The position numbers and the translations under genes are program-made. Below the pieces are notes generated by a model. The model searched no databases and was not told where the DNA came from. It saw only the letters and a program-made list of their open reading frames with translations. Source: an uncultured Bacteroidales bacterium (GTDB lineage: Bacteria > Bacteroidota > Bacteroidia > Bacteroidales > Muribaculaceae). Taken from it: a DNA stretch of 64,000 bases. This document shows positions 5,799 through 63,742 of the stretch, in pieces; positions within the stretch are counted from its first letter, which is position 1, and the number at the start of each line of letters is the position of its first letter. The stretch lies in assembly GCA_902774055.1 (NCBI GenBank), contig CACYGX010000001.1:94187-158186 (forward strand), written 5' to 3'.

Positions 5799-5810
5799 TA
5801 TTTTTTAACT

Positions 5811-5842
5811 TTTGACGTTATACAGTATATAATGTACCTTAA
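5811..5842 (+). promoter_or_regulatory. Possible promoter of fbp
   Basis: TTTG and TACCTTAA are separated by 20 bases. The -33 box is perfect and the -7 box matches six of eight consensus positions. The fbp ATG follows 26 bases later. Confidence 0.4.
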
Positions 5843-5868
5843 ACTCATAAAAAAGCTATAGCAGAACT

Positions 5869-7878
5869 ATGAAACCAAAGAAAAGAAAACGTGACCTCTA
5901 TTTCCTGAAGTTGCTGTCACGCAGCTTCCCCAATGTGGCGACTGCCAGCACCGAGATCATCAACCTCGAAGCGATTCTGAACCTTCCCAAGGGTACCGAA
6001 CACTTCCTTGCTGACCTCCATGGTGAGTATCTTGCTTTCCAGCACGTGTTGCGCAATGCCAGTGGTACCATTAAGCGTAAAGTGGGTGAGATTTTCAACG
6101 ACTCGTTGAGTACCCGTGAACAGAAGGACCTGTGCACCCTCATCTACTATCCTGCCGAGAAACTGGAACTTGTCAAGGCCGCTATTCCCGACAAAGATGA
6201 ACTGAATGACTGGTACTTCATCACCATCAACCGCCTAGTGAAGGTGTGCCGCAATGTGTCGTCAAAATATAGCCGTTCCAAGGTGCACAAGGCACTGCCC
6301 GAGGATTTCTCCTACATCATTCAGGAGCTCATGCACGAGCACAGCAGTGATCCCAACAAGCAGGCCTATGTGGATGTGATTATCAAGACCATCATCTCGA
6401 CCCATCGTGTGGACGAGTTCATCATCGCGATGTGTAACCTTATCCAGCAGTTGACCATCGACATGCTGCACATCCTGGGCGATGTCTATGACCGTGGCCC
6501 CAGCCCCGACAAGATCATGGATGTCCTGGGCAGTTTCCACAACTTCGATATCCAGTGGGGTAACCACGATATCCTGTGGATGGGCGCCGCAGCAGGCAAT
6601 GATTGCAGTATTGCCAATGTGTTGCGTATCGCCCTGCGCTACGGCAACCACGGTGTGCTCGAGGACGGTTACGGCATCAACCTGTTGCCGCTGGCAACCT
6701 TCGCTATGGACACCTATGCCAACGATCCCTGCGAGCGCTTCCTGCCCAAGGACGGCAGCGCCAAGGATCCCGAGCGTGCACGCACGGCACAACTCGTTGC
6801 CCAGATGCACAAGGCCATCAGCATCATCCAGTTCAAACTCGAGGCTGCCGCCATCAAGCGTCGTCCCGACTTTGACATGAAGGATCGTCTCTTGCTCGAC
6901 AAGATGGACCTCCAGAAGGGTATCATTAAAATCAAAGGCAAGGAATATGAAATGCTGGACACCAACTTCCCGACAGTTGATCCCAAGCATCCCTACAAGT
7001 TGACGCCTGAGGAGGAATCCATCGTCAACAAGTTGCACCAGTCGTTCACCGAGAGCGATAAACTGCGCAAGCACATGAAATGCATGTTCCGCAACGGTTG
7101 TCTCTACACCATTGCTAACGGTAACCTGCTTTACCATGCCTCCATCCCCCTGAACGAGGACGGAACCCTCAAGGACGTGCTCATCCGCGGCGAGAAGTAC
7201 CATGGTAAGGCTCTGCTCAAGCGCGCTGGCAACCTTATCCGCTCGGCATACTTTGGATGTGAGGACCCCGATGAATATGCCTTTGCACTCGACTACCTGT
7301 GGTACCTGTGGTGTGGCAAGGATTCGCCCGCGTTCGACAAGAGCAAGATGGCGACCTTTGAGCGCTACTTCATTGCCGACAAGGATACCCACAAGGAGGT
7401 AAAGGGTGCTTACTACACCATGCGTGATAACCCCGAGGTGGTTGACATGATCCTCGATGAATTTGGTGTCGAGGGCGAACATCGCCACATCATCAACGGC
7501 CACGTGCCCGTCAAGACCATCAAGGGTGAGAATCCCATCAAGGCCGGCGGCAAACTCATGGTGATTGACGGCGGTTTCTCTAAGGCCTACCAGCCCGAGA
7601 CGGGTATTGCAGGATACACCCTGGTGTACCATTCGCGCGGTTTCGAACTTGTTCAGCACGAGCCCTTCTCGTCCAAGGAGGAGGCCGTGAACCAGGGCCA
7701 GGACATTAAGTCCACGCGCAGCCTGGTTGAGCTCACTAACCACCGCATGCATGTCAAGGACACCGACATAGGCATTGAACTGCAGTCCCAGATCGACGAC
7801 CTCAAGGAACTGCTTGACGCTTACCGCTCTGGCGACCTCAAGGAGCGCAACCTGCGTCCCATCACCAACAAGCGCTAA
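5869..7878 (+). CDS. fbp: Class III fructose-1,6-bisphosphatase
   Basis: The enzyme hydrolyses fructose 1,6-bisphosphate to fructose 6-phosphate, the committed step of gluconeogenesis, in the cytoplasm. At 669 residues it matches the Firmicutes/Bacteroidetes class III family (about 650-670). Metal-site motifs of the metallophosphatase fold are visible: ADLHGEY (D49, H51), GDVYDRGP (D205, D208), WGNHD (N232, H233, D234) and, near the C-terminus, INGHVPVK and IDGGFS. The start is the first ATG, followed by a basic KPKKRKRD stretch. The gene stands alone with a large palindrome downstream. Confidence 0.95.
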   Translation: MKPKKRKRDLYFLKLLSRSFPNVATASTEIINLEAILNLPKGTEHFLADLHGEYLAFQHVLRNASGTIKRKVGEIFNDSLSTREQKDLCTLIYYPAEKLELVKAAIPDKDELNDWYFITINRLVKVCRNVSSKYSRSKVHKALPEDFSYIIQELMHEHSSDPNKQAYVDVIIKTIISTHRVDEFIIAMCNLIQQLTIDMLHILGDVYDRGPSPDKIMDVLGSFHNFDIQWGNHDILWMGAAAGNDCSIANVLRIALRYGNHGVLEDGYGINLLPLATFAMDTYANDPCERFLPKDGSAKDPERARTAQLVAQMHKAISIIQFKLEAAAIKRRPDFDMKDRLLLDKMDLQKGIIKIKGKEYEMLDTNFPTVDPKHPYKLTPEEESIVNKLHQSFTESDKLRKHMKCMFRNGCLYTIANGNLLYHASIPLNEDGTLKDVLIRGEKYHGKALLKRAGNLIRSAYFGCEDPDEYAFALDYLWYLWCGKDSPAFDKSKMATFERYFIADKDTHKEVKGAYYTMRDNPEVVDMILDEFGVEGEHRHIINGHVPVKTIKGENPIKAGGKLMVIDGGFSKAYQPETGIAGYTLVYHSRGFELVQHEPFSSKEEAVNQGQDIKSTRSLVELTNHRMHVKDTDIGIELQSQIDDLKELLDAYRSGDLKERNLRPITNKR

Positions 7879-24275: not shown

Positions 24276-24307
24276 CTTGCATATAATAAGTTTTATAACG
24301 AAATTTG
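24276..24307 (+). promoter_or_regulatory. Weak promoter candidate for the LRR protein
   Basis: CTTG and GAAATTTG are separated by 20 bases; the TTTG half of the -7 box is present but the TA half is not. The ATG lies 33 bases further. Confidence 0.3.
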
Positions 24308-24340
24308 CAAGATAAACTAAGTCACCAAAAAAAGATTACT

Positions 24341-27300
24341 ATGAACCGTTTTAATTTCAGAACCAACCTGTTGCTTCTGTTGACCCTATTATGCGTCCCC
24401 ACAGCCCTTGCCTATGACTTCGCAGTTGATGGCATTTACTACAATATCAACGGAACAGAAGCCACTGTAACTCATGATAATAATTTTAATTCTTATTATC
24501 AAGGAGAAGTTCTCATCCCTGAAACAGTAACTTATGATGGCACTACATACACTGTAACTTGCATTGGAAACAATGCATTTTATGGTTGCAGCTACTTGAC
24601 AAGTGTTATTATTCCTAATACAGTCACAACTATAGATGTCGAAGCGTTCAGACTTTGCACCGGTTTAAGTCACATAACTATTCCAAACTCGATCACTACA
24701 ATTGGCAATAGTGCATTCGTTAGCTGTATAAGTCTTACGAGCATGACCATTCCTAATTCAGTTACTAGAATCGGAAACAAGGCGTTTCAGGGATGTCGCT
24801 CATTGATAGCACTTGACTTCAATGCTGTTAATTGCGCTGATTTCAGCACTAATGATAATAATCCCTTTTATAACTTAAATCTCTCTACTGTTAATTTTGG
24901 TGATAGTGTGAAAAGGATTCCTGCTTATTTCGCACAGAATCAGACAAAACTGGTGCACTTGAACATCGGTAACTCAGTCACAAGTATCGGTGACTATGCC
25001 TTTTGGTATTGTGTCGGCCTAACTGACGTGACCATTCCCAATTCGGTTATCGAGATTGAAGACCGAGTTTTCCATGGTTGCAAAGGTTTGAAAAACGTCA
25101 CTTTTGGCAGTTCGATTATTTGTATAGGTGATAGCGCATTTAATAGTTGCAGTGGTCTTACGAGCGTAACCATCCCAAAGTCTATTCAGCGCATTGGCTA
25201 CCGTGCTTTCAATGGGTGTACAGCATTGGATACGCTAAATTTTAATGCCATATCCTGTGCCAATTTTAGTTCGGAATATTACAGACAACCATTCTATTAT
25301 TTGAATATTTCGACAATCAATTTAGGAGATAGCGTTGAGAGAATTCCCGCGTATTTTGCTCAGGGTTTGAAAAAAATTAAGAATTTACTCATTCCTAACT
25401 CTGTCACAAGCATTGGTGAGTGTGCATTTCAGGGCTGTAGTGGATTGACGGGTGATTTGAATATCCCTAACTCTGTCACTAGCATCGGCAATTATGCGTT
25501 TTATGGTTGCAGTGGCCTTACGGGTGATTTGATTATACCTGACTCTATCTTAATGATCGATTATGGCGTGTTCCGAGATTGTAGTGGCCTGACAAGCTTG
25601 ACATTCCCAAGCATGGTCACCAACATCAGCAGCTATGCATTTCAGGGATGTAGTGGACTGACGAGCGTTACTATCCCTAACTCAGTCACCAGCATTGGCG
25701 ACTATGCCTTTCAGGGCTGTAGTGGGCTGACGAACGTTACCATTGGCAACTCTGTCACAAGTATTGGTGGTTATGCCTTTCAGGGCTGTAATGGATTAAC
25801 GGGTGATTTGACTATCCCCAACTCTGTCACTAGTATCGGCAACTATGCATTTCAAGAATGCTCTGCGTTGCAAACGCTCAACTTCAATGCGGTTTCCTGT
25901 GATAATTTCAGTTCAGCAGCACGCTCTCGTCCATTCTATAATTTAAATATCTCGATCATTAATATTGGGAACGAAGTGGAAAAAATTCCAGACTATTTCG
26001 CAAACGGTCTGACAAATCTGACAAGCGTGTCCATTGGCAACTCAGTCATCACTATCGGCAACTATGCGTTTTATGGTTGCAGTGGTTTGGTGAGTGTGGC
26101 TATCCCCAACACGGTCACCAGCATTGGAGTCTATGCATTTTATAATTGTAGTGGACTAACGGGAGATTTGATCATCCCCAACTCTGTCACTAGCATCGGC
26201 AACTATGCGTTTTATGGATGTAGTGGTTTGACGGGAGATTTGATTATCCCCAACTCTATCACAATAATCGATTATGGCGTGTTCGAGGGATGCAGTGGTT
26301 TGACGAGTGTGACCTTCGGCAACTCCGTCTCTGAAATCGGCAGCTCTGCGTTCTATGGTTGCAGTGGTTTGGAGAGCGTGACCATTCCATATTCTCTCAC
26401 CTCCATTGGAAGCTATGCATTTCAAGGATGCTCTGCGTTGCAAACGCTTAACTTCAATGCAGTTTCATGTTCTGATTTCAGTTCAACAGCAAGCTCTCGT
26501 CCTTTCTATAATTTAAATATCTCGACCATCTATTTTGGAGATAACGTTGAGCGAATACCCGCTTATTTTGCACATGGCTTGGTCAAACTGACAAGCGTGA
26601 CCATCCCGAAGTCTGTCAACTACATCGGTAATTATGCATTCCAAGGTTGCTCTTATTTGCAAACGCTCAACTTCAATGCAGTCTCTTGTTCTGATTTTAG
26701 TTCTTTGGTTTTTGATGGTTCAAAAAATATCTCGACTGTTAATATCGGGAATAGTGTGGAGCGAATCCCTGCGTTTTTTGCGTATGGGCAGACTAAACTG
26801 TCGAGCGTTGCCATCCCCAATTCGGTTACTACCATCGGCAAATATGCATTCTCTGGCTGCAGCGCTCTGTCGTGCGTGACTATTCCTAACTCGGTCACAA
26901 CCATTGCTAACAATGCATTCTATAGCTGTAGTGGTTTAACAGGCACTTTGACCATCCCCACCTCGGTTACCACCATCGGCAATTCTGCTTTCTCAGGCTG
27001 CAGCAGTCTGACGTCTGTTTCGAGTTTGAGGCCAGAGGCTGTTTCTTTGCCATCAGATGCATTCTCTTCTTCTACATATAGCAATGCGATGCTGAAGGTT
27101 CCCGTTGGGAGCTATAACAGCTATATGCAGACAGATTATTGGAACAAGTTCAGTAGAATATGTGAGGTGGATGTAGATGACAACATTATGGTTACTGGCA
27201 TCTCACTAAATGTGTCAGACAAGGTCCTGAATATTGGCGAAACATTTGGATTGACAGCAACGCTTTCACCAGATTTTGCCACAAACCGAACGGTGCTGTG

Positions 27301-29197
27301 GTCATCGAGTGAAAACAATGTTGCCACTGTTGATAATGATGGTATGGTTACGGCTTTGGATGATGGGTCGGCTATCATCACCGCTACGACCACCGACGGC
27401 AGCAACCTGAGCGCTTCATGCAATGTGACCGTGGTTAGACCTGTGACGGGCATCACGCTCAATGAAAACAGCCTTGAACTTGTGTTGCCCGAGATGGCGC
27501 AACTGATTGCAACCATCACGCCCAGTAATTCAACTAACGGTACGTTGCAATGGACGAGCAGCAAATCCTCTGTAGCAAGGGTGGATGCCAACGGACTTGT
27601 GACATCAGTAGCGCCTGGCACGGCAAACATTACAGCCACAACTACCGATGGTACAAGCTTGAGTGCGTCCTGCAGTGTGACGGTGCGACGGCAATATGTG
27701 ACATCCATTACACTGAACGAGATTTATCTGGAGATGCATTTGGGCGACACCTTCCAATTATCGGCAGATGTGGCTCCAGAAAATGCTACAAACAAGACGC
27801 TGAACTGGTCTTCGAGCGCAACCTCGGTGGCCAGCGTGGATACAAACGGTCTGGTTACCGCCAAATCAGCCGGAACGGCCATCATCACCGCAAGAGCTGC
27901 CGATGGCAGCAATATCTCTAAGAGTTGTGTTGTTAATGTACTGCCAGACTATTACATCTCTCTTGATACATTGACCCATATCAGAGGTGAGGCTGCCAAC
28001 CTGGTTGTTTTACCAGTGTCTCTGTATAACAAAAATCCCATCTCTGCCATCCAATTTGATGTGAGCTTGCCCTCCTGCATCACCTTTGGCTATCCTGAAA
28101 TGTGGCTGGACGATGATCGGGCTACCCGAAGCCATTCATTGAGTATCAATCAACTCTCCAGTAACTCATATCGAGTGCTGATAGCTTCTTCGACAGCCAA
28201 GAACCTCAAGGGAAATGATGGCCCGATAGCTCACATGAATATATTAATGAGTAAAACCATAAGTACCACAGGAAATTACTATATTAATATTTCAAATATT
28301 ATCGCTTCAGAATCAGATGAGACACAACATATCCTTAATAATTCTAAGGGAGTTGTCCGTTACTATTATATTGTGGGTGATGCCGATGCGGATGCTTCGG
28401 TTGATATCGCTGACTATATGGCTACTGCAAGCAAGATTCTGGGCCGTTCGCCTTCACCGTTCTATAGTGATGCAGCTGATGTGGACGCGAATTCCAGCAT
28501 CAACGTGACCGATCTTGTAGGTATCGCAAACATCTCGCTGGGCATTAAGCCTATCACGTTACGTTATTCACCTCGTCAAGGTTCGGAATTGGATTGTCTG
28601 ACCTGTGAGCAGCTTGCTATCGTTGGCGGAGGGGAAGGTGAGGCCACCCTCAATCTGGATGCGGGCTATGATTTCGCTGCCTTCCAAATGGATTTGTCCC
28701 TACCACAGGGCATGACCCTGAAAGATGCGGTTCTTGGCAACGAGGCCTCCAAACTGCAGTTGACGTGGACGACGTTGCCTGATGGCAAGGTGCGCTTGCT
28801 GGCCTCCTCGTTCAGTGATGCCGAGGTCATGGGCGCATGTCCCGGACTACTGACACTCAAGGTTAAAACTGACGAAAGCTTTGTTGGCTCAAGTATCGGA
28901 ATAAGTGACATCACTTTTGCCGAGCGCAACTTAAACAGCCACAAGTTCGATGACATGGAAGTGGAATATTATGGTACGACCGCAGTCCAAGAAATAGATG
29001 GTGCCTCCCGCATTTATGTCGAGGGCGGCATGATTATCGTTGACACTCCGATGAACGGCAAGGTTGTGGTAAGTGATGTCTCTGGTCACACGAGGGAGTA
29101 TTCCGTCACCATCGGTCGTAACGAGATTGCTCCTTGGACCACAGGCATAATGATGATAAAATTCAATAACCAGACATTAAAAATCAACCTGAAATGA
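24341..29197 (+). CDS. Giant secreted BspA-type LRR protein with Ig-like, cohesin-like and dockerin-like modules
   Basis: The 1618-residue protein has a signal peptide (about 1-24) and then about 25 BspA/TpLRR leucine-rich repeats (about 75-925) of the type IPNSVTSIGNYAFYGCSGLT. Five longer units with LNFNAVSC and ERIPAYFA break the repeat run. Three Ig-like BIG2 domains follow (about 950-1030, 1034-1115, 1120-1199), then a cohesin-like domain (about 1203-1343), a dockerin-like pair (about 1345-1404; DADADASVDIADY and DVDANSSINVTDL), a second cohesin-like domain (about 1430-1545) and a 70-residue tail that resembles a type IX secretion sorting domain. It is probably surface-displayed and binds host or microbial ligands. 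A TTG twelve codons upstream is in frame but less likely. The repeat region is richer in A+T than neighbouring genes. Confidence 0.88.
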   Translation: MNRFNFRTNLLLLLTLLCVPTALAYDFAVDGIYYNINGTEATVTHDNNFNSYYQGEVLIPETVTYDGTTYTVTCIGNNAFYGCSYLTSVIIPNTVTTIDVEAFRLCTGLSHITIPNSITTIGNSAFVSCISLTSMTIPNSVTRIGNKAFQGCRSLIALDFNAVNCADFSTNDNNPFYNLNLSTVNFGDSVKRIPAYFAQNQTKLVHLNIGNSVTSIGDYAFWYCVGLTDVTIPNSVIEIEDRVFHGCKGLKNVTFGSSIICIGDSAFNSCSGLTSVTIPKSIQRIGYRAFNGCTALDTLNFNAISCANFSSEYYRQPFYYLNISTINLGDSVERIPAYFAQGLKKIKNLLIPNSVTSIGECAFQGCSGLTGDLNIPNSVTSIGNYAFYGCSGLTGDLIIPDSILMIDYGVFRDCSGLTSLTFPSMVTNISSYAFQGCSGLTSVTIPNSVTSIGDYAFQGCSGLTNVTIGNSVTSIGGYAFQGCNGLTGDLTIPNSVTSIGNYAFQECSALQTLNFNAVSCDNFSSAARSRPFYNLNISIINIGNEVEKIPDYFANGLTNLTSVSIGNSVITIGNYAFYGCSGLVSVAIPNTVTSIGVYAFYNCSGLTGDLIIPNSVTSIGNYAFYGCSGLTGDLIIPNSITIIDYGVFEGCSGLTSVTFGNSVSEIGSSAFYGCSGLESVTIPYSLTSIGSYAFQGCSALQTLNFNAVSCSDFSSTASSRPFYNLNISTIYFGDNVERIPAYFAHGLVKLTSVTIPKSVNYIGNYAFQGCSYLQTLNFNAVSCSDFSSLVFDGSKNISTVNIGNSVERIPAFFAYGQTKLSSVAIPNSVTTIGKYAFSGCSALSCVTIPNSVTTIANNAFYSCSGLTGTLTIPTSVTTIGNSAFSGCSSLTSVSSLRPEAVSLPSDAFSSSTYSNAMLKVPVGSYNSYMQTDYWNKFSRICEVDVDDNIMVTGISLNVSDKVLNIGETFGLTATLSPDFATNRTVLWSSSENNVATVDNDGMVTALDDGSAIITATTTDGSNLSASCNVTVVRPVTGITLNENSLELVLPEMAQLIATITPSNSTNGTLQWTSSKSSVARVDANGLVTSVAPGTANITATTTDGTSLSASCSVTVRRQYVTSITLNEIYLEMHLGDTFQLSADVAPENATNKTLNWSSSATSVASVDTNGLVTAKSAGTAIITARAADGSNISKSCVVNVLPDYYISLDTLTHIRGEAANLVVLPVSLYNKNPISAIQFDVSLPSCITFGYPEMWLDDDRATRSHSLSINQLSSNSYRVLIASSTAKNLKGNDGPIAHMNILMSKTISTTGNYYINISNIIASESDETQHILNNSKGVVRYYYIVGDADADASVDIADYMATASKILGRSPSPFYSDAADVDANSSINVTDLVGIANISLGIKPITLRYSPRQGSELDCLTCEQLAIVGGGEGEATLNLDAGYDFAAFQMDLSLPQGMTLKDAVLGNEASKLQLTWTTLPDGKVRLLASSFSDAEVMGACPGLLTLKVKTDESFVGSSIGISDITFAERNLNSHKFDDMEVEYYGTTAVQEIDGASRIYVEGGMIIVDTPMNGKVVVSDVSGHTREYSVTIGRNEIAPWTTGIMMIKFNNQTLKINLK

Positions 29198-30621
29198 TGA
29201 AGATTAGAAAATCTTTATACTTATTGGGTATTATTTTGGCCTCAGTCCTGTTGGGCAGCCCGTCGGCAGCTGCTGCCGACTATTCGGTTTATCTTGACAC
29301 GCTTTCGCATATTAGGGGTATGGCATCGGATGTGTCAGTGATGACCCTTTCGCTGAGTAACATGAACCCGATATCAGGCATCCAGTTTGATGTGACCTTG
29401 CCCAGTTGTGTGACCTTCGGCTACCCCGAGATGTTGCTTGACGATAACCGCTCGACCCGCAGCCATTCTCTTAGCGTGAACAAACTCAGCGGCTACTCCA
29501 ACAAGTACCGCGTACTTATCGCCTCGTCCACTGCTAAGGCTCTTAAGGGCAATGACGGCCCGTTGGTGAACATGAATATTATTATGAGCAATACAAGTTC
29601 ATATAACGGATACTATTACATCGATGTTTCCAACATCATTGCTTCGGAGTCTGACGAAACGCAACACAACATCAGCAGCACGCGTGGCGTGGTGCGTTAC
29701 GGCTATATGGTGGGTGATGCAAACGGTGACGCTACAGTCGATATAGCCGACTATATGGCCACGGCAAGCAAGATCCTTGGTAATTCCCCATCCCCGTTCT
29801 ACAGTGATGCGGCAAATGTCAACAACACCGCATCAATAGATGTTTCTGACCTCGTTGGCATTGCGAACATCTCGCTGGGAATAAGGCCAATAACCTACAG
29901 GTATGGAAATTCGTATGGCTTTTATGCCAATAATTTTTCCGTTGATGGAACACTCTTAAACAGTTGTGAAGGTTCTAGGGATGTCGTTCTTGATGCTCGA
30001 GCCACTGGTGATGACAGGCTGTATATCGAGGATTTCAGCATCGAACCTGGCGAAACGCTATCAGTGCCAGTCTTGTTGGACAACAATGTAGCCTATGGTG
30101 GTCTGCAGACAGACCTGTATTTGCCCGATGGATTGAGTGTAGACATGGAAGACGATGAATACATCATAGACTTAACATCACGCAAGGACTATTCTCACTC
30201 GCTTTCTTGTTTTGAACAGGGTGATGGCGCCATAAGGATTTATGTTTCGTCGATGAGCACAGCTGCCTTCTCAGGAAACAGCGGCGCTATTATGACCATC
30301 AGCTTGACCGCTTCCAGTGATTTTCATGGTCCTGCTACTATATCATTAAAAAACACGATCTGTGCCGAGCCCATAGGTACCAAGCATGTGTTGCAAGATG
30401 AAACCTGCACCGTGAACAGTAATTCAAGCGGCGTGATACTGGGAGACGTGGATGACAATGGGAGTGTGGGCATTAGCGACGTTTCGGCGCTCATCGATTA
30501 CCTGTTAAGCGGTGACACTGAAGGCGTTAATCTTGAGGCCGCCGATTGTGACCATAACAACAATGTGGGTATCAGCGATGTGTCGGCGCTCATTGACTTC
30601 CTGCTCACTGGCAGTTGGTAG
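29194..30621 (+). CDS. Secreted protein with two cohesin-like and two dockerin-like modules
   Basis: The 475-residue protein has a signal peptide (about 1-28). Its modules run cohesin-like (about 30-170), dockerin-like (about 174-230; GDANGDATVDIADY), cohesin-like (about 277-410) and a C-terminal dockerin (417-475; GDVDDNGSVGISD and DCDHNNNVGISD, with the Ca-binding Asp/Asn pattern). The first two modules are close copies of residues about 1200-1404 of the protein encoded just upstream: both share SHSLS, YRVLIASSTAK and SPSPFYSDAA. The start overlaps the upstream stop (ATGATG), so the pair is one transcript. The domains suggest Ca-dependent protein-protein assembly at the cell surface; the partners are unknown. 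Confidence 0.82.
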   Translation: MMKIRKSLYLLGIILASVLLGSPSAAAADYSVYLDTLSHIRGMASDVSVMTLSLSNMNPISGIQFDVTLPSCVTFGYPEMLLDDNRSTRSHSLSVNKLSGYSNKYRVLIASSTAKALKGNDGPLVNMNIIMSNTSSYNGYYYIDVSNIIASESDETQHNISSTRGVVRYGYMVGDANGDATVDIADYMATASKILGNSPSPFYSDAANVNNTASIDVSDLVGIANISLGIRPITYRYGNSYGFYANNFSVDGTLLNSCEGSRDVVLDARATGDDRLYIEDFSIEPGETLSVPVLLDNNVAYGGLQTDLYLPDGLSVDMEDDEYIIDLTSRKDYSHSLSCFEQGDGAIRIYVSSMSTAAFSGNSGAIMTISLTASSDFHGPATISLKNTICAEPIGTKHVLQDETCTVNSNSSGVILGDVDDNGSVGISDVSALIDYLLSGDTEGVNLEAADCDHNNNVGISDVSALIDFLLTGSW

Positions 30622-56051: not shown

Positions 56052-56999
56052 ATGGGAAACTCGATATTAGCAATCGTGGTGCCTTGCTTCAACGAGGAGG
56101 AAGTGTTGCCACAGACCAATCAGCAACTGCGCGCCCTGCTCGACGGCATGATGCGTGACGGGCTGGTGGGCAATGGGAGTTACATCCTCTATGTCAACGA
56201 TGGGTCGCGTGACCGCACGTGGGAAATCATCGCTGGATATAGCGAGGCCGATGTCCATGTGAGGGGCCTTAAACTGGCAGGAAATGTGGGACACCAGAAC
56301 GCCCTGATGGCGGGTCTGGAAACTGCCCGCCAGGATGCTGATGTGACCGTCTCGATCGACGCCGACCTGCAGGACGACATCCATGCCATCCCCGAGATGG
56401 TCAACAAGTATAACGATGGCTGTGACATCGTGTATGGCGTGCGCCGCAAGCGCACGACCGATACCTTCTTCAAGCGCACCACGGCCCAGATGTTCTATAA
56501 GTTCATGACGGGCATGGGTGTGAAATCGGTCTATAACCACGCCGACTTCAGGTTGATGAGCCGTCGTGCGGTGGATGCCTTGTGCCAGTACGAGGAACGC
56601 AACCTGTTCCTGCGCGGCCTGGTGCCCCTGCTGGGCTACAAGACCGACCAGGTCTATTATGACCGCTTGGAGCGTCAAGCCGGCGAGAGCAAGTACCCGT
56701 TGAGCAAGATGTTGTCCTTCGCCATCGATGGCGTCACCTCGTTCAGTGTCAAGCCGTTGCGGCTGATTTTTGACTTGGGACTCGTTTTCCTGCTCATCAG
56801 CTTGGGCATTCTGGTCTATGTGATTGTGGCCTTGTGCCAGGGCCGTGGCGTGCAGGGTTGGGCGTCGTTGATGTTGTCCATCTGGTTTGTGGGTGGCTGT
56901 GTGCTCATCTGCCTCAGTATCATTGCCGCCTATATCGGGCGAATCTACACCGAGGACAAACACAGGCCCCGCTATAATATTGAGACCTACCTTAAATAA
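56052..56999 (+). CDS. GT2 polyprenyl-phosphate glycosyltransferase (GtrB/DPM-like)
   Basis: The 315-residue protein has a GT-A domain (about 1-225) with VPCFNEEEVL and the sugar-nucleotide/metal motif SIDADLQDD (D103, D105), then two C-terminal membrane helices (about 237-258 and 270-293). This layout fits enzymes that load one sugar onto undecaprenyl phosphate at the inner membrane (GtrB, ArnC, DPM1 type). It is the first gene of the glycan operon; the next start is 15 bases past its stop. Confidence 0.9.
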   Translation: MGNSILAIVVPCFNEEEVLPQTNQQLRALLDGMMRDGLVGNGSYILYVNDGSRDRTWEIIAGYSEADVHVRGLKLAGNVGHQNALMAGLETARQDADVTVSIDADLQDDIHAIPEMVNKYNDGCDIVYGVRRKRTTDTFFKRTTAQMFYKFMTGMGVKSVYNHADFRLMSRRAVDALCQYEERNLFLRGLVPLLGYKTDQVYYDRLERQAGESKYPLSKMLSFAIDGVTSFSVKPLRLIFDLGLVFLLISLGILVYVIVALCQGRGVQGWASLMLSIWFVGGCVLICLSIIAAYIGRIYTEDKHRPRYNIETYLK

Positions 57000-57014
57000 T
57001 TGAATTCCAATAGT

Positions 57015-57530
57015 ATGACAGAGATACAAAAAGGTGCTGAGCCCCGAGTGCCACGTCCCAGCGACATCAGGCTCTTCTTGACCGACGTTGACGGAACGCT
57101 CACCGATGGCGGCATGTACTACGGGTCGGATGGCACCGAATTTAAGAAATTCAACACCCGTGACGGCATGGGACTGCAGATGCTGCAACGCACTGGCGTC
57201 AAGGTGGGCATCGTCACCAGCGAAAATGTGGCCATCAACGTGAACCGTGCCAAGAAACTGGGGCTGGATTACCTCAAGCAGGGCGCACGCGACGGTGGCA
57301 AACTGGCGGCAACACGCGAAATCTGTGACGAGATGGGCATCACCATGCAAGAGGTGGCCTACGTAGGCGACGATGTGAACTGCTTCGACTTGCTGTCGGC
57401 AGTGGGGTGGGCGGCCTGTCCCGCTGATGCCTGTGACAAGGTGAAAAACATTCCTGGCATACACATTCTGTCTCGCCGTGGCGGTGATGCCTGCGTGCGC
57501 GAGTGGATTGACATGATTCTGGCTGAATAA
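57015..57530 (+). CDS. KdsC-like HAD phosphatase
   Basis: The 171-residue protein lacks a cap domain and has FLTDVDGTLTDG (D24, D26), VTSEN, a conserved Lys in GARDGGKLAA and VAYVGDDVNC, as in 3-deoxy-D-manno-octulosonate-8-phosphate phosphatase. KDO synthesis for lipid A-core is the likely role, but related enzymes act on phosphorylated nonulosonic acids. No kdsA or kdsB is nearby. The ATG chosen avoids an in-frame TTG at the preceding stop codon. The stop shares one base with the flippase start. Confidence 0.85.
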   Translation: MTEIQKGAEPRVPRPSDIRLFLTDVDGTLTDGGMYYGSDGTEFKKFNTRDGMGLQMLQRTGVKVGIVTSENVAINVNRAKKLGLDYLKQGARDGGKLAATREICDEMGITMQEVAYVGDDVNCFDLLSAVGWAACPADACDKVKNIPGIHILSRRGGDACVREWIDMILAE

Positions 57531-59026
57531 TGAGTGGCGAGAACGATAATCAGACCTTGAAACAAAAGACGGCCCAAGGCCTCTTTTGGGGCTTGCTGAG
57601 CAGCGGCGGTATGCAACTGCTCAATTTGATTATCGGCATTTTCCTCGCCCGCCTGCTCTCCCCTGGAGAATATGGCATCGTCGGCATGTTGGCCATCTTC
57701 TCACTCATTGCCGTTAACTTGCAAGAAAGCGGTTTCGGGGTTGCCCTGGTTAATATCAAGGAGATCAAGCACAACGACTATAACTCGGTGTTTTGGTTTA
57801 ATATTGGCGTTAGCATTCTGTTATATTTGATACTGTTCCTGTGTGCCCCGCTCATTGCCGCATTTTTCCATCAACCTTGCCTGACGTCGTTGTCTAGATT
57901 TCTCTTCTTGGGAATTATCTTTGCGGCACTCGGCGTCTCTCCAAATGCAATGCTCGTGAGGAGCCTGAAGATGAAGGAAAAGGCGATAACCTCGTTGTCT
58001 GCCTTGGTTATCTCGGGTTCGGTGGCTGTAGTCATGGCCATGAAGGGGTTCTCCTACTGGAGCCTGGCGACTCAGCAGGTATTATATAATGTGGTAATCA
58101 GCATTGGGCGATATTACTACACCCGCTGGTGCCCCACGTTCAAGGTGAATTTCACTCCCGTGAAACAGATGTTCTCATTCAGTTACAAAGTGCTGATTAC
58201 TGCTATCTTGACGACCATCAACAACAATGTGTTGACCGTTATCTTCGGCCGTTTGTTCCCGGCACAGGCTGTGGGCAACTTTACCCAAGCCAACAAGTGG
58301 AACACGATGGCCAACCAGTTGGTGACCAATACGGTGGCCCAGGTGGCCCAGCCCGTCCTTACTCGTGTCACCGACGATAACGAGCGCCAACGCCGCGTCT
58401 TCGGCAAGATGCTTCGTTTCACGGCCTTCCTTGCTTTCCCTGCCATGTTCGGCCTGGCGATAGTGGCTCCGCAGGTCATCTTGCTTGCCATTGGCGACAA
58501 GTGGATTAACAGTATCCCCTTGCTGCAGGTTTTGTGCATCAGCGGCGCTTTTATCCCGTTATATACGGTCTATCAGAACCTGTTCTTGAGTCAAGGCAAG
58601 TCCGATACCTACATGTGGCTCACTATCGGTCAGATAGCGGCTATACTTATCGCGGTACTGGCTTGTCATCGTTTGGGTGTCATGGCGATGGTCATAGCCT
58701 TTGCATGCATCAATGTTTTGTGGCTCTTGATGTGGCAGTGGTTCGCTTCCAAACTCATTGGATACCGTTTTATGACCATGCTGCGAGATCTGTTGCCGTT
58801 CATGGTGATTGCCTTGATAGCGATGGCCATTACTTATTATGTGACACAGCCCATCAGCAACATGGCTCTATTGCTGCTGGTGCGCGTTCTTCTTGCTGCT
58901 GCACTTTATATCATGGCGATGAAATTGCTGCATGCAAAAATTCTCGAGGACTGTATCGAGTTCATTCTTTCCCGTAAAAATAAGAAAACCAATATCATAA
59001 ACGATCAAGAAGACAATGAAAGGTAA
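57530..59026 (+). CDS. MOP-superfamily oligosaccharide flippase (Wzx-like)
   Basis: The 498-residue protein has about 12-14 membrane helices and the family start TLKQKTAQGLFWGLLSSGGM and ARLLSPGEYGIVGML. This is the WzxC-type lipopolysaccharide/exopolysaccharide translocase group, which moves lipid-linked glycans across the inner membrane. It overlaps the KdsC-like gene by one base and galE by eleven, pointing to tight co-expression. Confidence 0.92.
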   Translation: MSGENDNQTLKQKTAQGLFWGLLSSGGMQLLNLIIGIFLARLLSPGEYGIVGMLAIFSLIAVNLQESGFGVALVNIKEIKHNDYNSVFWFNIGVSILLYLILFLCAPLIAAFFHQPCLTSLSRFLFLGIIFAALGVSPNAMLVRSLKMKEKAITSLSALVISGSVAVVMAMKGFSYWSLATQQVLYNVVISIGRYYYTRWCPTFKVNFTPVKQMFSFSYKVLITAILTTINNNVLTVIFGRLFPAQAVGNFTQANKWNTMANQLVTNTVAQVAQPVLTRVTDDNERQRRVFGKMLRFTAFLAFPAMFGLAIVAPQVILLAIGDKWINSIPLLQVLCISGAFIPLYTVYQNLFLSQGKSDTYMWLTIGQIAAILIAVLACHRLGVMAMVIAFACINVLWLLMWQWFASKLIGYRFMTMLRDLLPFMVIALIAMAITYYVTQPISNMALLLLVRVLLAAALYIMAMKLLHAKILEDCIEFILSRKNKKTNIINDQEDNER

Positions 59027-60050
59027 AATTTTAGTGACTGGCGGAACCGGCTTCATCGGTTCGCACACTACGGTCGAGCTGCAACAGGCCGGCTACGAGG
59101 TAGTCATCATCGACGACCTGAGTAACAGTAACATTGATGTGCTGGACGGTATCGAGCGCATTACGGGCATCCGCCCCGTGTTTGTCAAGGGCGACTGTAA
59201 GGACCGCGCTGTGGTGCGCAAGCTCTTTGAGGATAATCCCGGCATCAGCGGTATCATCAATTTTGCAGCAAGCAAAGCCGTGGGCGAGAGCATCGAGAAG
59301 CCCATCATGTATTACAGCAACAACATCAACATCCTGCTCAACTTGTTGGAACTGATGCCCGAGTTTGGCGTGAAGGGGTTTGTATTCTCGTCGTCATGCA
59401 CGGTCTATGGCGAGCCCGACAAGAATCCCATCACCGAGGATGCGCCCACCAAGAAGGCCACCTCGCCCTATGGCGCCACCAAGCAGATCTGTGAGGACAT
59501 CATCAGCGACGTCATCCGCAGCGGTAGCCCCATCAAGGCCATCCTGTTGCGCTACTTCAACCCGATTGGCGCCCATCCCAGTGCCGAAATCGGCGAACTG
59601 CCCAATGGCGTCCCCCAGAACCTGGTGCCCTATCTGACTCAGACCGCTATCGGCGTGCGCAAGGAGTTGAGCATCTTTGGTGACGACTATCCCACGCGCG
59701 ACGGTTCCTGCATCCGCGACTTCATCAACGTCGTTGACCTGGCCAAGGCCCACGTCAAAGCGCTGGAACGCATGCTCGAGGACAAGAGCGACGAGGCATT
59801 GGAAATCTTCAACATCGGCACGGGAAACGGAGCATCGGTGCTCGAGTTGCTCCACTCGTTTGAACGTGCAACAGGCGTGAAGGTGCCCCACAAGATTGCA
59901 CCGCGTCGTCCGGGCGACATCGTCCAGATTTGGGCCGATCCCAAGCGTGCCAACGAAGTCCTCGGCTGGCATGCCGAGATTTCACTCGACGACACCATGC
60001 TCAGCGCCTGGAACTGGCAAAAACGCCTCCGTGAACGCGGCATCATGTAA
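59016..60050 (+). CDS. galE: UDP-glucose 4-epimerase
   Basis: GalE interconverts UDP-glucose and UDP-galactose, supplying galactose for glycans. The 344-residue protein is an extended SDR with GGTGFIG (9-15), SSSCTVYG and Y152/K156 in PYGATK, and the terminal substrate-binding region RPGDIVQIWADP. It overlaps the flippase by eleven bases. UDP-GlcNAc epimerase activity cannot be excluded. Confidence 0.93.
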   Translation: MKGKILVTGGTGFIGSHTTVELQQAGYEVVIIDDLSNSNIDVLDGIERITGIRPVFVKGDCKDRAVVRKLFEDNPGISGIINFAASKAVGESIEKPIMYYSNNINILLNLLELMPEFGVKGFVFSSSCTVYGEPDKNPITEDAPTKKATSPYGATKQICEDIISDVIRSGSPIKAILLRYFNPIGAHPSAEIGELPNGVPQNLVPYLTQTAIGVRKELSIFGDDYPTRDGSCIRDFINVVDLAKAHVKALERMLEDKSDEALEIFNIGTGNGASVLELLHSFERATGVKVPHKIAPRRPGDIVQIWADPKRANEVLGWHAEISLDDTMLSAWNWQKRLRERGIM

Positions 60051-60068
60051 GTAATATATTTCTATTTG

Positions 60069-60878
60069 ATGAGCGACAAGCCAACATTCAATCAACAAGA
60101 GCTCAGGGCAAGATTCAACCCCGAGGGCTCCCCGCTGCGCCGCCAACAAATGGTCATGCTCGAGATGGTAAAGGTACTTGATTCCATCTGTAAAAAGCAT
60201 AATATACCATACTTCCTGTATGGCGGCACCTTGTTGGGCGCATTTCGTCACAATGGGTTTATTCCATGGGACGACGATTTGGATGTAGCCATGATGCGCA
60301 GCGATTACAAGCGCTTGTTGAAGGTCTTGCCCGATGAGTTGCCTGAGCATATTGTCCTCCAGACAAACGATACAGACAGGAATTACTTCTTCTTTGTCGG
60401 TAAACTGAGAGACAAGAGGTCTTTCCTTGATGAAGACAGTTTTGACATGGTGTTCAAGGAACGTGGCATCTTTATCGATATCTTTCCGCTTGATAAGTTA
60501 CTGCCATGGTCTCAACGGCTGCGGTTGCAGAGCCCTGCCTACAACATTTTTCGCAAGGGAGACGGGAGTAATGGCTCGATGCGGAAGATTAGGGCATTGA
60601 CATGGTTCAATCGTCATGTCTCATTTCCATTGCTCCGCTTCATCAGCCGTTGCAGTGGCACCCAGGCGCTCATGTGTGACTACGGAATCCCGTTTCACAA
60701 CATCTATGACCTGCAGGATGTGTTCCCGTTGACAACCCATGATTTTGAGGGTGTTCAACTCTCTGTTCCCGGCAATAGCCATCACATGCTCCAAACCATG
60801 TATGGTGACTACACGCAACTACCTGATGACCTCGACAATGTTTACCACCATGTTGAGCGACTAGAATTTTACGATTAA
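60069..60878 (+). CDS. LicD-family phospho-headgroup transferase
   Basis: The 269-residue protein has the LicD hallmarks YGGTLLGAFRHNGFIPWDDDL (GGTLLGA 52-58, PWDDDLD 66-72), the nucleotidyltransferase-type metal site used to transfer phosphocholine (or a similar aminoalkyl phosphate) from a CDP-activated donor to a sugar. The next gene encodes a LicC-like cytidylyltransferase, the enzyme that would make such a donor. A TTG three bases earlier is in frame; the ATG was preferred. No licA or licB gene is present. Confidence 0.9.
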   Translation: MSDKPTFNQQELRARFNPEGSPLRRQQMVMLEMVKVLDSICKKHNIPYFLYGGTLLGAFRHNGFIPWDDDLDVAMMRSDYKRLLKVLPDELPEHIVLQTNDTDRNYFFFVGKLRDKRSFLDEDSFDMVFKERGIFIDIFPLDKLLPWSQRLRLQSPAYNIFRKGDGSNGSMRKIRALTWFNRHVSFPLLRFISRCSGTQALMCDYGIPFHNIYDLQDVFPLTTHDFEGVQLSVPGNSHHMLQTMYGDYTQLPDDLDNVYHHVERLEFYD

Positions 60879-60904: not shown

Positions 60905-63742
60905 ATGCAAGCAATAATCTTAGCGGCAGGAATGGGCCGTCGTTTGGGTAAGTACACCCGTGATAACACCAAGTGCATGCTACCTGTCAACGGCGTTAGG
61001 TTAATAGATCGGATGCTGGAACAACTATGCCAGTTGAACTTGTCACGCTTGGTGATTGTGGTGGGTTATAAAGGTCAAGAATTAATTGATCACATCGGTA
61101 ACCGTTATGATGACCGTTTAAATATTGAATACGCCACAAATCCCATCTATGACAAGACCAATAATATCTATTCTCTGGCGCTGGTGAAGGACAAGTTGAC
61201 CGAAGATGACACACTGCTCATCGAGAGTGACTTGATTCTTGACGACAGCTTGTTTCAGATGATTCTCGACGATCCCTATCCAAATTTGGCCTTGGTGGCT
61301 AAGTATGAGACTTGGATGGATGGCACAATGGTTCGCATCGATAAGGACAACAACATTGTGAACTTTGTCCCCAAGAAGGCTTTCAGATACTCGGAAGTTG
61401 ACACTTACTATAAAACGGTAAATGTCTATAAATTTAGTAAAAATTTTTCTACCAGAGTATATGTGCCCTTCCTTGATGCTTATTGCAAGGTAATGGGTGA
61501 TAACGAATACTATGAGCAAGTGTTGCGGGTAATAACGTTGCTAGATCAGGCCAATCTCAAGGCATTGCCTATAGGTGACAAGCCATGGTATGAAATTGAT
61601 GATGTCCAGGATAAGGACATTGCCGAGGCCATATTCTCTCCTGATCAAGACAAGTTGAATAAGTATCATATCAGGTATGGTGGTTATTGGCGATTCCCCA
61701 AAATGCTGGATTTTTGCTATTTGGTCAATCCGTTTTTCCCAACCAAACGCATGCGCGAGGAAATGCGTGCCAACTTTGATGTCCTATTGACTCAATATCC
61801 TAGCGGCATGGCCATCAATTCATTGTTGGCTGGCAAGTATTTTGGAGTAAGTAGCCAATATGTCGTTGTGGGTAATGGCGCGGCCGAGTTGATTAAGAGC
61901 CTCATGGAACAGTTCATGAGTAAGGGCTGCAAGATGGGTATCGTGTATCCGACATTTGAAGAGTATCCTCATCGATTGCCACAGGATGCCATCGTCCCGT
62001 TCTATCCAAGCAATCTTGACCTGCGTTATTCTGTTGATGAGTTAAAAGCATTCTATGAAGCAAAGGATATTCAGGCCTTGTTGCTCGTCAACCCAGACAA
62101 CCCTTCAGGCAATTACATTCCCAAGCAGGATGTGCTGGCTTTGGCTGCATGGTGTGCTCAGCGAGATATCAGGTTGATTGTTGACGAGTCATTTGTGGAC
62201 TTCTCTGACGGGGGGCCAGCTAATTCATTGTTAAATGATGACATCCTTGAGCAATATCCTAAGTTGTTGGTCATGAAGAGCATCAGCAAGTCTTACGGTG
62301 TTCCTGGTCTTAGACTGGGTGTCTTGGCTGGCGCAGATACTGCTCTGCTGGATAAGATGAAAAAAGATGTTGCCATCTGGAACATCAACTCTTTTGCCGA
62401 GTTCTATATGCAGATCTTTAACAAGTACGAGTCTTTCTACAAGGCTGCTTGTCAACAATTTGTCATTGAACGTAATCGATTTGCCAGCAAGCTCTCATCA
62501 ATACCATTCTTGCGTGTGATTCCTTCTCAGGCCAATTTCTTCCTGTGTCAAGTGACCAAGCATTACACGTCAAGGCAACTGACCGAAAAGTTGTTAAAAG
62601 ACCACAATTTACTGATTAAAGACTGTGACTCTAAAACGGGTCTTGAAGGAAAGAATTTCGTGAGAATTGCTATTCGTGATGAGAATGAGAACAACCAGCT
62701 AGTGGATGCGCTGAAGAGTCTAAACGGATTGAATATTTGCATTTGTGGCGGTGGCAATTTGGGTCATGTGATGGCTGGTTATTTGGCCTCCCAAGGCCTT
62801 CATCGCGTGAACGTTCTGACAGGGCATCCCGAGAAATGGTCAGATTCCTTGAAGATTAATGTGAAGAATCCATGTGGCTCCGAGGCGTTAAATGGTAAGT
62901 TAAACCTTGTGACTGCTAACGCTGAACAGGTCATACCTGATGCTGATATGGTCTTCATTTGCTTGCCTGGCCCACACATCAAGTCCATGCTTGAGAAAAT
63001 CAAGCCCTATTTGAACAAGAAAACGATTGTTGGTAGTATTGTTTCTAATACAGGCTTCTTCTTTCATGCCCACGAAGTGATTCCAAAGCAAACGATTTTC
63101 GGATTCCAGCGCGTTCCGTTTATTTCAAGAGTTGTGAAATATGGAGAAGAGGCAGATCTGTTGGGTTCTAAAAAGTCACTTAGCCTGTGTGTGGAAAATG
63201 GTAACGGTAATGCAATACGCATGACACTTGAGCACTTGCTTAATACACCCGTGAAATTGTTAGGGAATTTCTATGAGGTGAGTCTCTCAAACAGTAATCC
63301 CCTGTTGCACCCTGCAAGGTTGTATACCATGTGGAAGGACTGGAACCCATCAGTACAATATGAACGTATTCCGTCATTTTATGCCGAGTGGGATGACGCT
63401 GCTTCTCAATTACTCATTGATATGGATAATGAGTTGCAAGAATTGTTGAGACACTTGCCAGTTGACCCTGAGAATGTGACGTCCATTCTTGATTACTATG
63501 AGTCGACCGATGCCTCATCATTGTCATGTAAAATACGTTCTATTCCGGCTTTCAAGTCAATTATGTCTCCAATGAAAAAGGCTGGGAATGGCTTTATTCC
63601 GGATTTAGAAAGTCGTTATTTTACTGAGGACTTTGAGTGTGGAACATTCTATATTCGTGACACTGCCAGATTGAATGGTATCGAAACACCAGCGATTGAC
63701 TTGGTGTGTGAATGGTATGAGAATCTGAAATCTTATAAGTAA
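60905..63742 (+). CDS. Trifunctional fusion: LicC-like cytidylyltransferase, CobD/HisC-like PLP enzyme, opine dehydrogenase
   Basis: This 945-residue protein has three complete enzyme domains. Residues 1-235 are a LicC-like nucleotidyltransferase (LAAGMGRRLG, K23, IESDL with D109). Residues about 255-605 are a fold-type I PLP enzyme (GNGAAELI, NPDNPSG, D427 in DESFVDFS, PLP-binding K462 in SISKSYG, then GLRLG), nearest to CobD phospho-amino-acid decarboxylases and HisC aminotransferases. Residues about 610-945 are an octopine/nopaline-type dehydrogenase (GGGNLG 615-620; N798 and H802 in NPLLHP; D909 in FTEDF). A likely reading is decarboxylation of a phosphorylated amino acid, CTP activation and N-alkylation with a 2-oxo acid, to make a donor for LicD. 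The order of steps and the substrates are inference. Base composition is richer in A+T than in galE. Confidence 0.85.
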   Translation: MQAIILAAGMGRRLGKYTRDNTKCMLPVNGVRLIDRMLEQLCQLNLSRLVIVVGYKGQELIDHIGNRYDDRLNIEYATNPIYDKTNNIYSLALVKDKLTEDDTLLIESDLILDDSLFQMILDDPYPNLALVAKYETWMDGTMVRIDKDNNIVNFVPKKAFRYSEVDTYYKTVNVYKFSKNFSTRVYVPFLDAYCKVMGDNEYYEQVLRVITLLDQANLKALPIGDKPWYEIDDVQDKDIAEAIFSPDQDKLNKYHIRYGGYWRFPKMLDFCYLVNPFFPTKRMREEMRANFDVLLTQYPSGMAINSLLAGKYFGVSSQYVVVGNGAAELIKSLMEQFMSKGCKMGIVYPTFEEYPHRLPQDAIVPFYPSNLDLRYSVDELKAFYEAKDIQALLLVNPDNPSGNYIPKQDVLALAAWCAQRDIRLIVDESFVDFSDGGPANSLLNDDILEQYPKLLVMKSISKSYGVPGLRLGVLAGADTALLDKMKKDVAIWNINSFAEFYMQIFNKYESFYKAACQQFVIERNRFASKLSSIPFLRVIPSQANFFLCQVTKHYTSRQLTEKLLKDHNLLIKDCDSKTGLEGKNFVRIAIRDENENNQLVDALKSLNGLNICICGGGNLGHVMAGYLASQGLHRVNVLTGHPEKWSDSLKINVKNPCGSEALNGKLNLVTANAEQVIPDADMVFICLPGPHIKSMLEKIKPYLNKKTIVGSIVSNTGFFFHAHEVIPKQTIFGFQRVPFISRVVKYGEEADLLGSKKSLSLCVENGNGNAIRMTLEHLLNTPVKLLGNFYEVSLSNSNPLLHPARLYTMWKDWNPSVQYERIPSFYAEWDDAASQLLIDMDNELQELLRHLPVDPENVTSILDYYESTDASSLSCKIRSIPAFKSIMSPMKKAGNGFIPDLESRYFTEDFECGTFYIRDTARLNGIETPAIDLVCEWYENLKSYK

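Follow-up and report, generated by a model that had tools for sequence, protein, structure and literature searches.

The window described here is a 64,000-nucleotide stretch of DNA from an uncultured, rumen-type Bacteroidales bacterium of the Muribaculaceae (GenBank assembly GCA_902774055.1, contig CACYGX010000001.1, positions 94,187 to 158,186 of the forward strand). Near its 3' end lies an open reading frame (ORF) for a 945-amino-acid protein which, judged by its sequence, is an intact fusion of a LicC/PntC-type cytidylyltransferase, a CobD-type pyridoxal phosphate (PLP) enzyme and an octopine-dehydrogenase-type enzyme (ODH). The ORF is part of a real, conserved pathway made of several components, and on our best reading its single polypeptide would assemble an opine-like phosphoethanolamine head group for decorating a surface or protein-linked glycan. 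The ORF and its domains are as follows.

60905..63742, + strand: three-domain ORF, 945 amino acids, ATG start, no internal stop
60905..61654 (amino acids 1-250), + strand: domain 1, LicC/PntC-type cytidylyltransferase (PF12804/PF00483; PDB 1jyk, 6pd1)
61655..62722 (amino acids 251-606), + strand: domain 2, CobD-type PLP enzyme, predicted O-phospho-L-serine decarboxylase (PF00155; PLP lysine K462)
62723..63742 (amino acids 607-945 plus stop), + strand: domain 3, octopine-dehydrogenase-type imine reductase, as predicted (PF02317; N798, H802, R904, D909)

An intact fusion gene

Pfam matches to NTP_transf_3 (residues 3-123), Aminotran_1_2 (311-603) and Octopine_DH (787-940) all exceeded their curated cut-offs, which bears out a preliminary description of this DNA that had seen three full enzyme domains in one polypeptide. 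Domain 2 runs into the ODH without a linker (ALKSLNGLNICICGGGNLG). In the relatives printed at this joint (L026, L027, L030 and L042) the two-domain gene and the ODH gene are separate and overlap at ATGA, so the fusion would most simply have arisen by putting overlapping genes into one frame. Below, the two-domain part (cytidylyltransferase plus PLP enzyme), alone or fused, is called C1.

We searched 200 genomes (G), a set that includes the genome of the window. A second sample, genome_contigs, supplied loci (L); the best 80 of its 220 confirmed loci were used, and it may lack the records nearest to the window. The two samples partly overlap and their counts are not additive.

An assembly error or frameshift joining separate genes could be suspected, since the ODH is a separate gene in most of the relatives read and the window's contig terminates 258 bases past the ORF stop. 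Nine of the 200 genomes, the window's included, nevertheless encode the complete fusion (78-100% identity), each in one uninterrupted open frame, and the other fused sequences printed share the linker-free joint. The two dangers foreseen at the outset, an artefactual join and an architecture absent from all other genomes, thus gave way to a recurrent gene; we rejected the artefact, which is almost certainly not the explanation. The position of the contig end does make the window uninformative about downstream genes, which the relatives show.

Conservation was read from an alignment of 41 two-domain sequences and one of 30 ODH sequences, both including the window's own. The residues singled out in the preliminary description (D109, K462, N798, H802 and D909) are conserved; of the GGGNLG that it also named, the dinucleotide motif of the ODH, the GGG is invariant across the 30 sequences and the NLG part is variable. 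The structure model of residues 1-607 has a weak stretch at 262-278.

A cytidylyltransferase resembling LicC and PntC

Domain 1 matched PF12804 with 43.5 bits (cut-off 27), and its best PDB sequence matches were 1jyk (LicC) and 6pd1 (PntC-AEPT). The top Foldseek match over domains 1 and 2 together was the PntC-AEPT fusion. The N-terminal nucleotide-binding motif of this fold is present, with D109 as its catalytic Asp. E107, S108 and D109 are invariant in all 41 aligned sequences, and Glu107 aligns with Tde-PntC Glu104, where the LicC chain (1jyk) has Asp. According to passages in PMC6697681, Glu104 is one of two glutamates reported to contact the primary amine of 2-aminoethylphosphonate (AEP); the second, Glu196, falls outside the alignment shown. 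We predict that domain 1 is a CTP (cytidine triphosphate)-dependent cytidylyltransferase for an aminoethyl phospho-substrate.

Two known systems are comparable. Treponema denticola PntC-AEPT (PDB 6PD1/6PD2; passages in PMC6697681) likewise places a cytidylyltransferase N-terminal to a PLP enzyme that makes a phospho(no)amine, with Glu at the amine-contacting position in both proteins. It differs in having a class V transaminase, which yields a phosphonate, as its PLP enzyme and in lacking an ODH domain, whereas the window's PLP enzyme is CobD-type (class I/II) with phosphoethanolamine as predicted product; the two are ~13-16% identical in Foldseek alignments. The Lic-1 pathway (LicA-LicC-LicD, making CDP (cytidine diphosphate)-choline) shares with the window a CDP-linked phosphoalcohol donor and a LicD transferase, while in the window's pathway the head group is predicted to come from an amino acid, to carry a primary amine rather than choline, and to undergo an extra N-alkylation. 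A choline head group is disfavoured, because PF01633 (choline kinase, LicA) had no match in the window's genome and Glu107 is as in PntC.

A CobD-type PLP enzyme

The PLP lysine K462 is invariant in 41 of 41 sequences. The best NCBIfam model for domain 2 was TIGR01140 (CobD), whose 194.3 bits lie below the cut-off of 290.55; the domain may therefore work like a CobD-type decarboxylase without being filed as CobD itself. The free-standing CobD-like protein of the same genome also scores below that cut-off (240 against 290.55). Ranked by sequence among PDB entries, 6oux came first (153 bits), then 3ftb, labelled histidinol-phosphate aminotransferase (HisC), with 119 bits and Salmonella CobD (1lc5) with 115. 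The Foldseek listing titles 6oux as SMUL_1544 decarboxylase of Sulfurospirillum multivorans. By structure CobD (1lc5) is level with or just above SMUL_1544, and CobD chains together with 6oux chain A rank ahead of chains labelled HisC.

SMUL_1544 is reportedly specific for phosphoserine. This closest solved sequence relative of domain 2 (PDB 6OUX) has been proposed to produce ethanolamine phosphate (might, in the wording of the relevant passage of PMC4585668); it serves norcobamide synthesis, whereas the window's enzyme is fused and lies in a glycan locus. Phosphoserine is accordingly favoured over phosphothreonine as the predicted substrate. The same pathway could in principle start from O-phospho-L-threonine, as for cobalamin CobD, giving an N-alkylated (R)-1-amino-2-propanol phosphate head group: the best NCBIfam model is that of a threonine-phosphate decarboxylase, Salmonella CobD equals SMUL_1544 by structure, and the other CobD-like gene means that phosphothreonine may be available in this genome. 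We consider this unlikely, since domain 2 is nearer in sequence to SMUL_1544 than to Salmonella CobD (153 against 115 bits) and since a genome described below, G053, presents the ODH and a closely similar LicD with an unbranched aminoethyl group.

An octopine-dehydrogenase-type domain

Domain 3 matched PF02317 with 104.8 bits (cut-off 30) and PDB 3c7a, octopine dehydrogenase, with E 7e-31. Its AlphaFold2 model (pLDDT 95.8) had octopine dehydrogenase as its top three Foldseek matches (TMq 0.83-0.85), and the nearest folds were octopine dehydrogenase and N-(1-D-carboxylethyl)-L-norvaline dehydrogenase (CENDH). N798, H802, R904 and D909 are invariant in all 30 ODH sequences (positions 193, 197 and 304 of the ODH fragment plus 605 give N798, H802 and D909). 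H802 and D909 align in the 3c7a comparison with the His/Asp pair of octopine dehydrogenase, which we take to be catalytic. R904 aligns with Arg324, the residue that holds the pyrophosphate of NADH; the arginine site of the same enzyme also binds agmatine, which is an amine lacking a carboxylate (both from passages in PMC2924402).

On these grounds the ODH domain is predicted to condense an amine reductively with a 2-oxo acid. It shares fold, cofactor motif (the GGG in its Rossmann half) and conserved catalytic residues with octopine dehydrogenase, CENDH and staphylopine-type enzymes (PF02317 and kin). Known octopine dehydrogenase-type enzymes act on amino acids or taurine-like amines and release free opines; in the window, by contrast, the predicted partner is phospho- or CDP-linked ethanolamine.

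Domain 2 might instead be an aminotransferase and the ODH, with the family that replaces it in relatives, ordinary ketone or amino-acid reductases, together yielding a nucleotide-linked compound with no opine bond. Aminotransferase class I/II and HisC models do match domain 2, the HisC-labelled 3ftb is its second-best PDB sequence match, and the N-terminal part of the ODH resembles ketopantoate reductases. We judge this quite unlikely given the structural ranking of CobD chains and 6oux chain A ahead of HisC-labelled chains, the invariant His/Asp pair of the ODH, and the exchange of the ODH for another family described next; ketopantoate-type chemistry is not a known reaction of that family.

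Two unrelated families exchange in one slot

In relatives C1 stands alone, mostly followed by an ODH or by a PF02423 protein (ornithine cyclodeaminase/mu-crystallin, OCD). The 200 genomes hold 51 C1 loci, with a fused ODH in 9, an adjacent ODH in 15 and an adjacent OCD in 25, the other 2 being cut by a contig end (G013, G069). Exactly one of ODH and OCD accompanies C1 in every one of the 49 uncut loci. The three slot OCDs tested all matched PF02423 (79.5-91.7 bits, cut-off 24); the NCBIfam matches listed for the tested OCDs all fall below their cut-offs, so the assignment stops at the family. Within the genus (101 genomes), 23 of the 24 PF02423 matches above cut-off adjoin C1. The other (L132, 8539-9507) lies in another glycan cluster of G092, a genome whose two-domain gene is accompanied by an OCD of its own. 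For PF02317 the corresponding count is 22 of 38, so ODH-family proteins have other jobs too in the genus. A second, longer ODH-family protein of ~400 amino acids is seen in L043 (4294-5502 and 5503-6708), L028 and L032; in these glycan clusters its neighbour is a GH88/76-like protein, and the two-domain gene lies a few kb away.

The OCD may follow C1 on the opposite strand, as in the window's near kin L018, L020, L022, L023, L024 and L036. We mapped the OCD label on a C1 tree of 78 rows, made by a quick method with Shimodaira-Hasegawa-like approximate likelihood ratio test (SH-aLRT) support only; the window and L115 were added, and L041, L044, L045 and L046 were left out, as their two-domain gene is incomplete or broken or their ODH frame overlaps oddly. 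The label requires 11 changes, 10 of them forced by well-supported branches. Shuffled labels gave a mean of 15.0 changes and came as low as 11 in 1 of 500 shuffles, so the label is clustered but labile. A replacement is seen between L069 and L072, whose neighbours from metG onward are 87-99% identical (99% for metG and 96% each for the two-domain protein and the flippase; 60-97% upstream of metG) with an OCD in place of the ODH.

Thus two unrelated families seem to do interchangeable work in this slot. Reduction of the C=N bond of imino acids is chemistry common to both, and their apparent interchangeability therefore argues for C=N reduction, that is, reductive N-alkylation.

The 80 genome_contigs loci comprise 8 with a fused ODH, 47 with an adjacent ODH, 16 with an adjacent OCD and 9 with neither; the sample is biased towards ODH carriers, two of the six patterns used in the search being located in the ODH part. 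Seven of the nine truly have neither (L052, L055, L064, L065, L066, L070 and L071), L046 reaches a contig end, and L045 has its two-domain gene in two pieces with an ODH after the second (4902-6836). L154 (5003-6953) is broken in the same way, by decay or assembly error. L059 (2183-4377) is the only locus of the 80 in which an OCD comes first and a divergent ODH (33%) directly after it; a scaffold gap interrupts the OCD gene. The OCD version is carried by Bacteroides cellulosilyticus DSM 14838 (L073).

Farther afield the distribution of C1 is narrow: at E 1e-100 it was found in 13 of the 393 genomes that sampled the order, and at E 1e-60 in 2 of the 395 that sampled the phylum, the window's own genome being counted in each. 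The 12 loci of the order sample outside the genus have an ODH in three cases (G138, G161, G774), an OCD in three (G650, G153, G888) and neither in six (G613, G662, G704, G794, G801, G874). LicD adjoins C1 in four of the last six; in G662 and G801 it was not found in the 12 kb read. The distant phylum match (31% identity) has a LicD-family gene directly after it and no ODH. Since loci lacking both ODH and OCD exist, C1 plus LicD appears to be the core and ODH or OCD a frequent addition.

The ODH is also found fused to LicD. In L048 (11815-13608) and L056 (2447-4258) one ORF of ~600 amino acids matches both Octopine_DH and LicD above cut-off, and these are the sole loci of the 80 with an ORF matched by two of the hidden Markov models (HMMs) that we built from those loci and used for the LicD, flippase, metG, PepM and PF04464-type counts over the 80 loci. 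With fusions to C1 in some genomes and to LicD in others, the ODH is linked to the steps on either side of its own in the proposed route.

A phosphonate pathway replaces the two-domain gene in G053

In G053 (L113) the block GT2 (glycosyltransferase family 2)-phosphatase-flippase-GalE-LicD is followed by genes for phosphoenolpyruvate (PEP) mutase (PepM), phosphonopyruvate decarboxylase (Ppd), a PntC-like protein and AEP transaminase (AEPT), and then by the ODH gene. An AEP pathway thus stands in place of C1, and ODH and LicD are kept. PepM, Ppd and AEPT scored 406.3, 505.9 and 466.0 bits (cut-offs 319.55, 312.5 and 360.8). The LicD of G053, supported by an NCBIfam match below cut-off, is 79-91% identical to the LicDs of eight ODH/OCD relatives and 82% identical to the window's. 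LicDs of four PepM plus Ppd genomes lacking ODH and OCD are 57-70% identical to the LicDs of G053 and of the ODH/OCD type, and the GalE of these genomes is 96-98% identical to that of G053 in the three where it was found. AEP and phosphoethanolamine have the aminoethyl end in common. The pattern of LicD identity and the retention of the ODH therefore suggest that the ODH and the G053-type LicD go with an aminoethyl head group, whether phosphate or phosphonate.

Twelve genomes have a PEP mutase above cut-off (in two of them on contigs < 9 kb); the ODH stands beside it only in G053 and the OCD in none. A PepM-type gene lies within 10 kb of C1 and ODH in L061, L067, L074 and L080. Six loci of the genus (L125-L130; genomes G055, G071, G006, G089, G019, G002) have PepM and Ppd with LicD and no ODH or OCD; four of them (L125-L128) also share the flippase block. 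In five of the six (L125-L129; L130 is cut) PepM and Ppd come with an iron alcohol dehydrogenase, which suggests a hydroxyethylphosphonate version in those five. The window's own genome (G000) had no TIGR02320 match, and we rejected a phosphonate route there for want of this PEP mutase match.

It might also be that ODH and OCD act on another amine, such as a glycan amino acid or amino sugar, and are merely co-regulated with a plain CDP-ethanolamine pathway. Loci with the two-domain gene and LicD and neither ODH nor OCD make plain phosphoethanolamine transfer seem possible, and N-carboxyethylated amino acids are known in O-antigens (passages in PMC10609480). We regard this as very unlikely: nine genomes join the ODH to the head-group synthase in one chain and two loci join it to LicD, each of the 49 uncut loci of the 200 genomes has exactly one of the two enzymes, and the ODH is kept when the front end becomes AEP.

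Gene neighbourhood and acceptor

Upstream of the three-domain ORF the window carries the following genes.

56052..56999, + strand: GT2 polyprenyl-phosphate glycosyltransferase-like protein, start of the syntenic block (PF00535; NF047588 226 bits, cut-off 500)
57000..57530, + strand: HAD phosphatase, KdsC/KDN-9-P phosphatase group (TIGR01670 124.3 bits, above 106.95; NF058599 159.3, below 180)
57530..59026, + strand: MOP flippase (PF13440; NF058658 653.1 bits, cut-off 720)
59016..60050, + strand: GalE-type UDP-hexose 4-epimerase (TIGR01179 398 bits, above 262)
60066..60878, + strand: LicD-family phosphotransferase, predicted transferase of the capped phosphoethanolamine (PF04991 145.4 bits, above 22.6)

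The licD gene ends 26 nt upstream of the three-domain ORF, which agrees with the LicD neighbour proposed earlier; the window's genome (94% complete) yielded two LicD genes, this one included. How often the architecture sits next to LicD had been posed as a question: by HMM, LicD lies within 10 kb in 64 of the 80 loci, some of which are short, and LicD or a PF04464-type protein in 72. The latter follows ODH or OCD in six LicD-less loci (L031, L033, L069, L072, L076, L082). Pfam verified LicD in L011, L065, L138, the window and the L048 and L056 fusions, and PF04464 in L072, L069 and L031.

Protein O-glycans are a plausible acceptor by analogy. A matching flippase lies within 10 kb in 47 of the 80 loci, and metG within 2.5 kb of C1 in 14. 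Passages in PMC12871550 describe the O-glycosylation locus of Bacteroidota as beginning with metG and wzx, and passages in PMC10897501 describe an O-glycan HexNAc of Prevotella intermedia bearing a phosphodiester to a C6H12O5 sugar alcohol. The likeness to the general O-glycosylation locus (LFG) consists of metG or the flippase near part of the 80 loci. The differences are that the window's flippase is nearest to the O-glycosylation flippase model NF058658 yet under its cut-off, and that none of the eight fused loci of the sample has an adjacent metG. With no metG beside the window's gene and the flippase below cut-off, such an acceptor can be proposed only tentatively.

Elsewhere in the window are a 1630-amino-acid BspA-type leucine-rich-repeat protein with bacterial Ig-like domains (24305-29197) and, next after it, a dockerin type I domain protein (29194-30621).

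Proposed pathway

We think it likely that the pathway runs from phosphoserine through phosphoethanolamine to CDP-ethanolamine, with reductive N-alkylation by a 2-oxo acid and LicD transfer to a glycan. The CobD-type domain would decarboxylate O-phospho-L-serine to phosphoethanolamine, and the LicC/PntC-type domain would join this with CTP to give CDP-ethanolamine. In the ODH domain a 2-oxo acid, most likely pyruvate, would condense with the free amine and the imine would be reduced with NAD(P)H; the product would be N-(1-carboxyethyl)ethanolamine phosphate, formed before or after CDP activation. The adjacent LicD, or in some relatives a CDP-glycerol-phosphotransferase-like protein, would then move the capped phosphoethanolamine onto a sugar, and the Wzx-type flippase would export the decorated sugar. 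Domain identities, conserved residues, gene partners, fusions and exchange patterns were read directly from sequence and fold; from these we infer each substrate, the order of activation and N-alkylation, and the acceptor. Decarboxylation, CTP activation and N-alkylation had been put forward in the preliminary description, and as a prediction this chemistry gains support from the ODH/OCD exchange, the ODH-LicD fusion, the AEP swap in G053, the rank of SMUL_1544 as closest solved relative of domain 2 by sequence, and the appearance of the predicted group in print.

Several points weigh against this pathway. Besides the sub-threshold CobD scores of domain 2 and of the genome's free-standing CobD-like protein, the place of 3ftb above CobD by sequence, and the structural parity of CobD with SMUL_1544, there are the seven of 80 and six of 12 loci with neither ODH nor OCD: if these enzymes are an add-on, their presence is no proof of the substrate of the first two domains. 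The OCD family also includes alanine dehydrogenases and ornithine cyclodeaminases, and nothing found singles out pyruvate over other oxo acids. G053 is a single genome with AEP, ODH and no two-domain gene, and its LicD similarity may partly reflect strain kinship. We found no glycan structure for any carrier.

The predicted product in nature and its significance

The predicted product occurs in another phylum, presumably in Proteus serogroup O14. Its name had been given in the preliminary description and was found in print: the glossary of PMC9630907 has R-Cet-EtnP, N-[(R)-1-carboxyethyl]ethanolamine phosphate, and a figure legend there on Proteus mirabilis O-polysaccharides and Klebsiella pneumoniae capsules lists it. 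The P. mirabilis O38 antigen, according to a passage in PMC9912281, has N-acetyl-phosphoethanolamine, which is not the predicted group. Among the matches listed from the open-licence literature, as far as their accessible passages go, there was neither a biosynthetic route for R-Cet-EtnP nor a description of the three-domain pathway, which is weak evidence of absence. The words 'ethanolamine' and 'opine' are absent from the main text of a paper on Proteus O-antigen clusters (PMC5560731), and 'Bacteroid-', 'Prevotella' and 'fused' do not occur in a ChoP survey (PMC10434233).

What is new here is the addition of opine chemistry to a Lic/Pnt-type head-group pathway, together with its double modularity; Lic and Pnt pathways themselves are already known. 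The pathway for decorating sugars seems to be genuine and little known, and relatives of the bacterium seem to follow it with interchangeable, unrelated enzymes. With pyruvate as the oxo acid, formula arithmetic predicts a modification of ~+195.03 Da for a phosphate and ~+179.03 Da for a phosphonate. It is possible, if somewhat doubtful, that ODH and OCD modify one and the same head group differently, with opposite stereochemistry or with different oxo acids. Bacteroidales glycans, perhaps including general protein O-glycans, would in that case carry a chiral cap that can be switched, N-(1-carboxyethyl)-phosphoethanolamine or the phosphonate equivalent. A swap of one gene would then rewrite the epitope with glycan backbone and transferase held constant. 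If the pathway itself is correct, it would supply a biosynthetic route to an opine-type phosphoethanolamine group listed among O-antigen and capsule components and would place opine dehydrogenases in glycan decoration, in a system in which both the source of the head group (phosphoserine or phosphonate) and the capping enzyme (from two unrelated families) are exchanged as modules.

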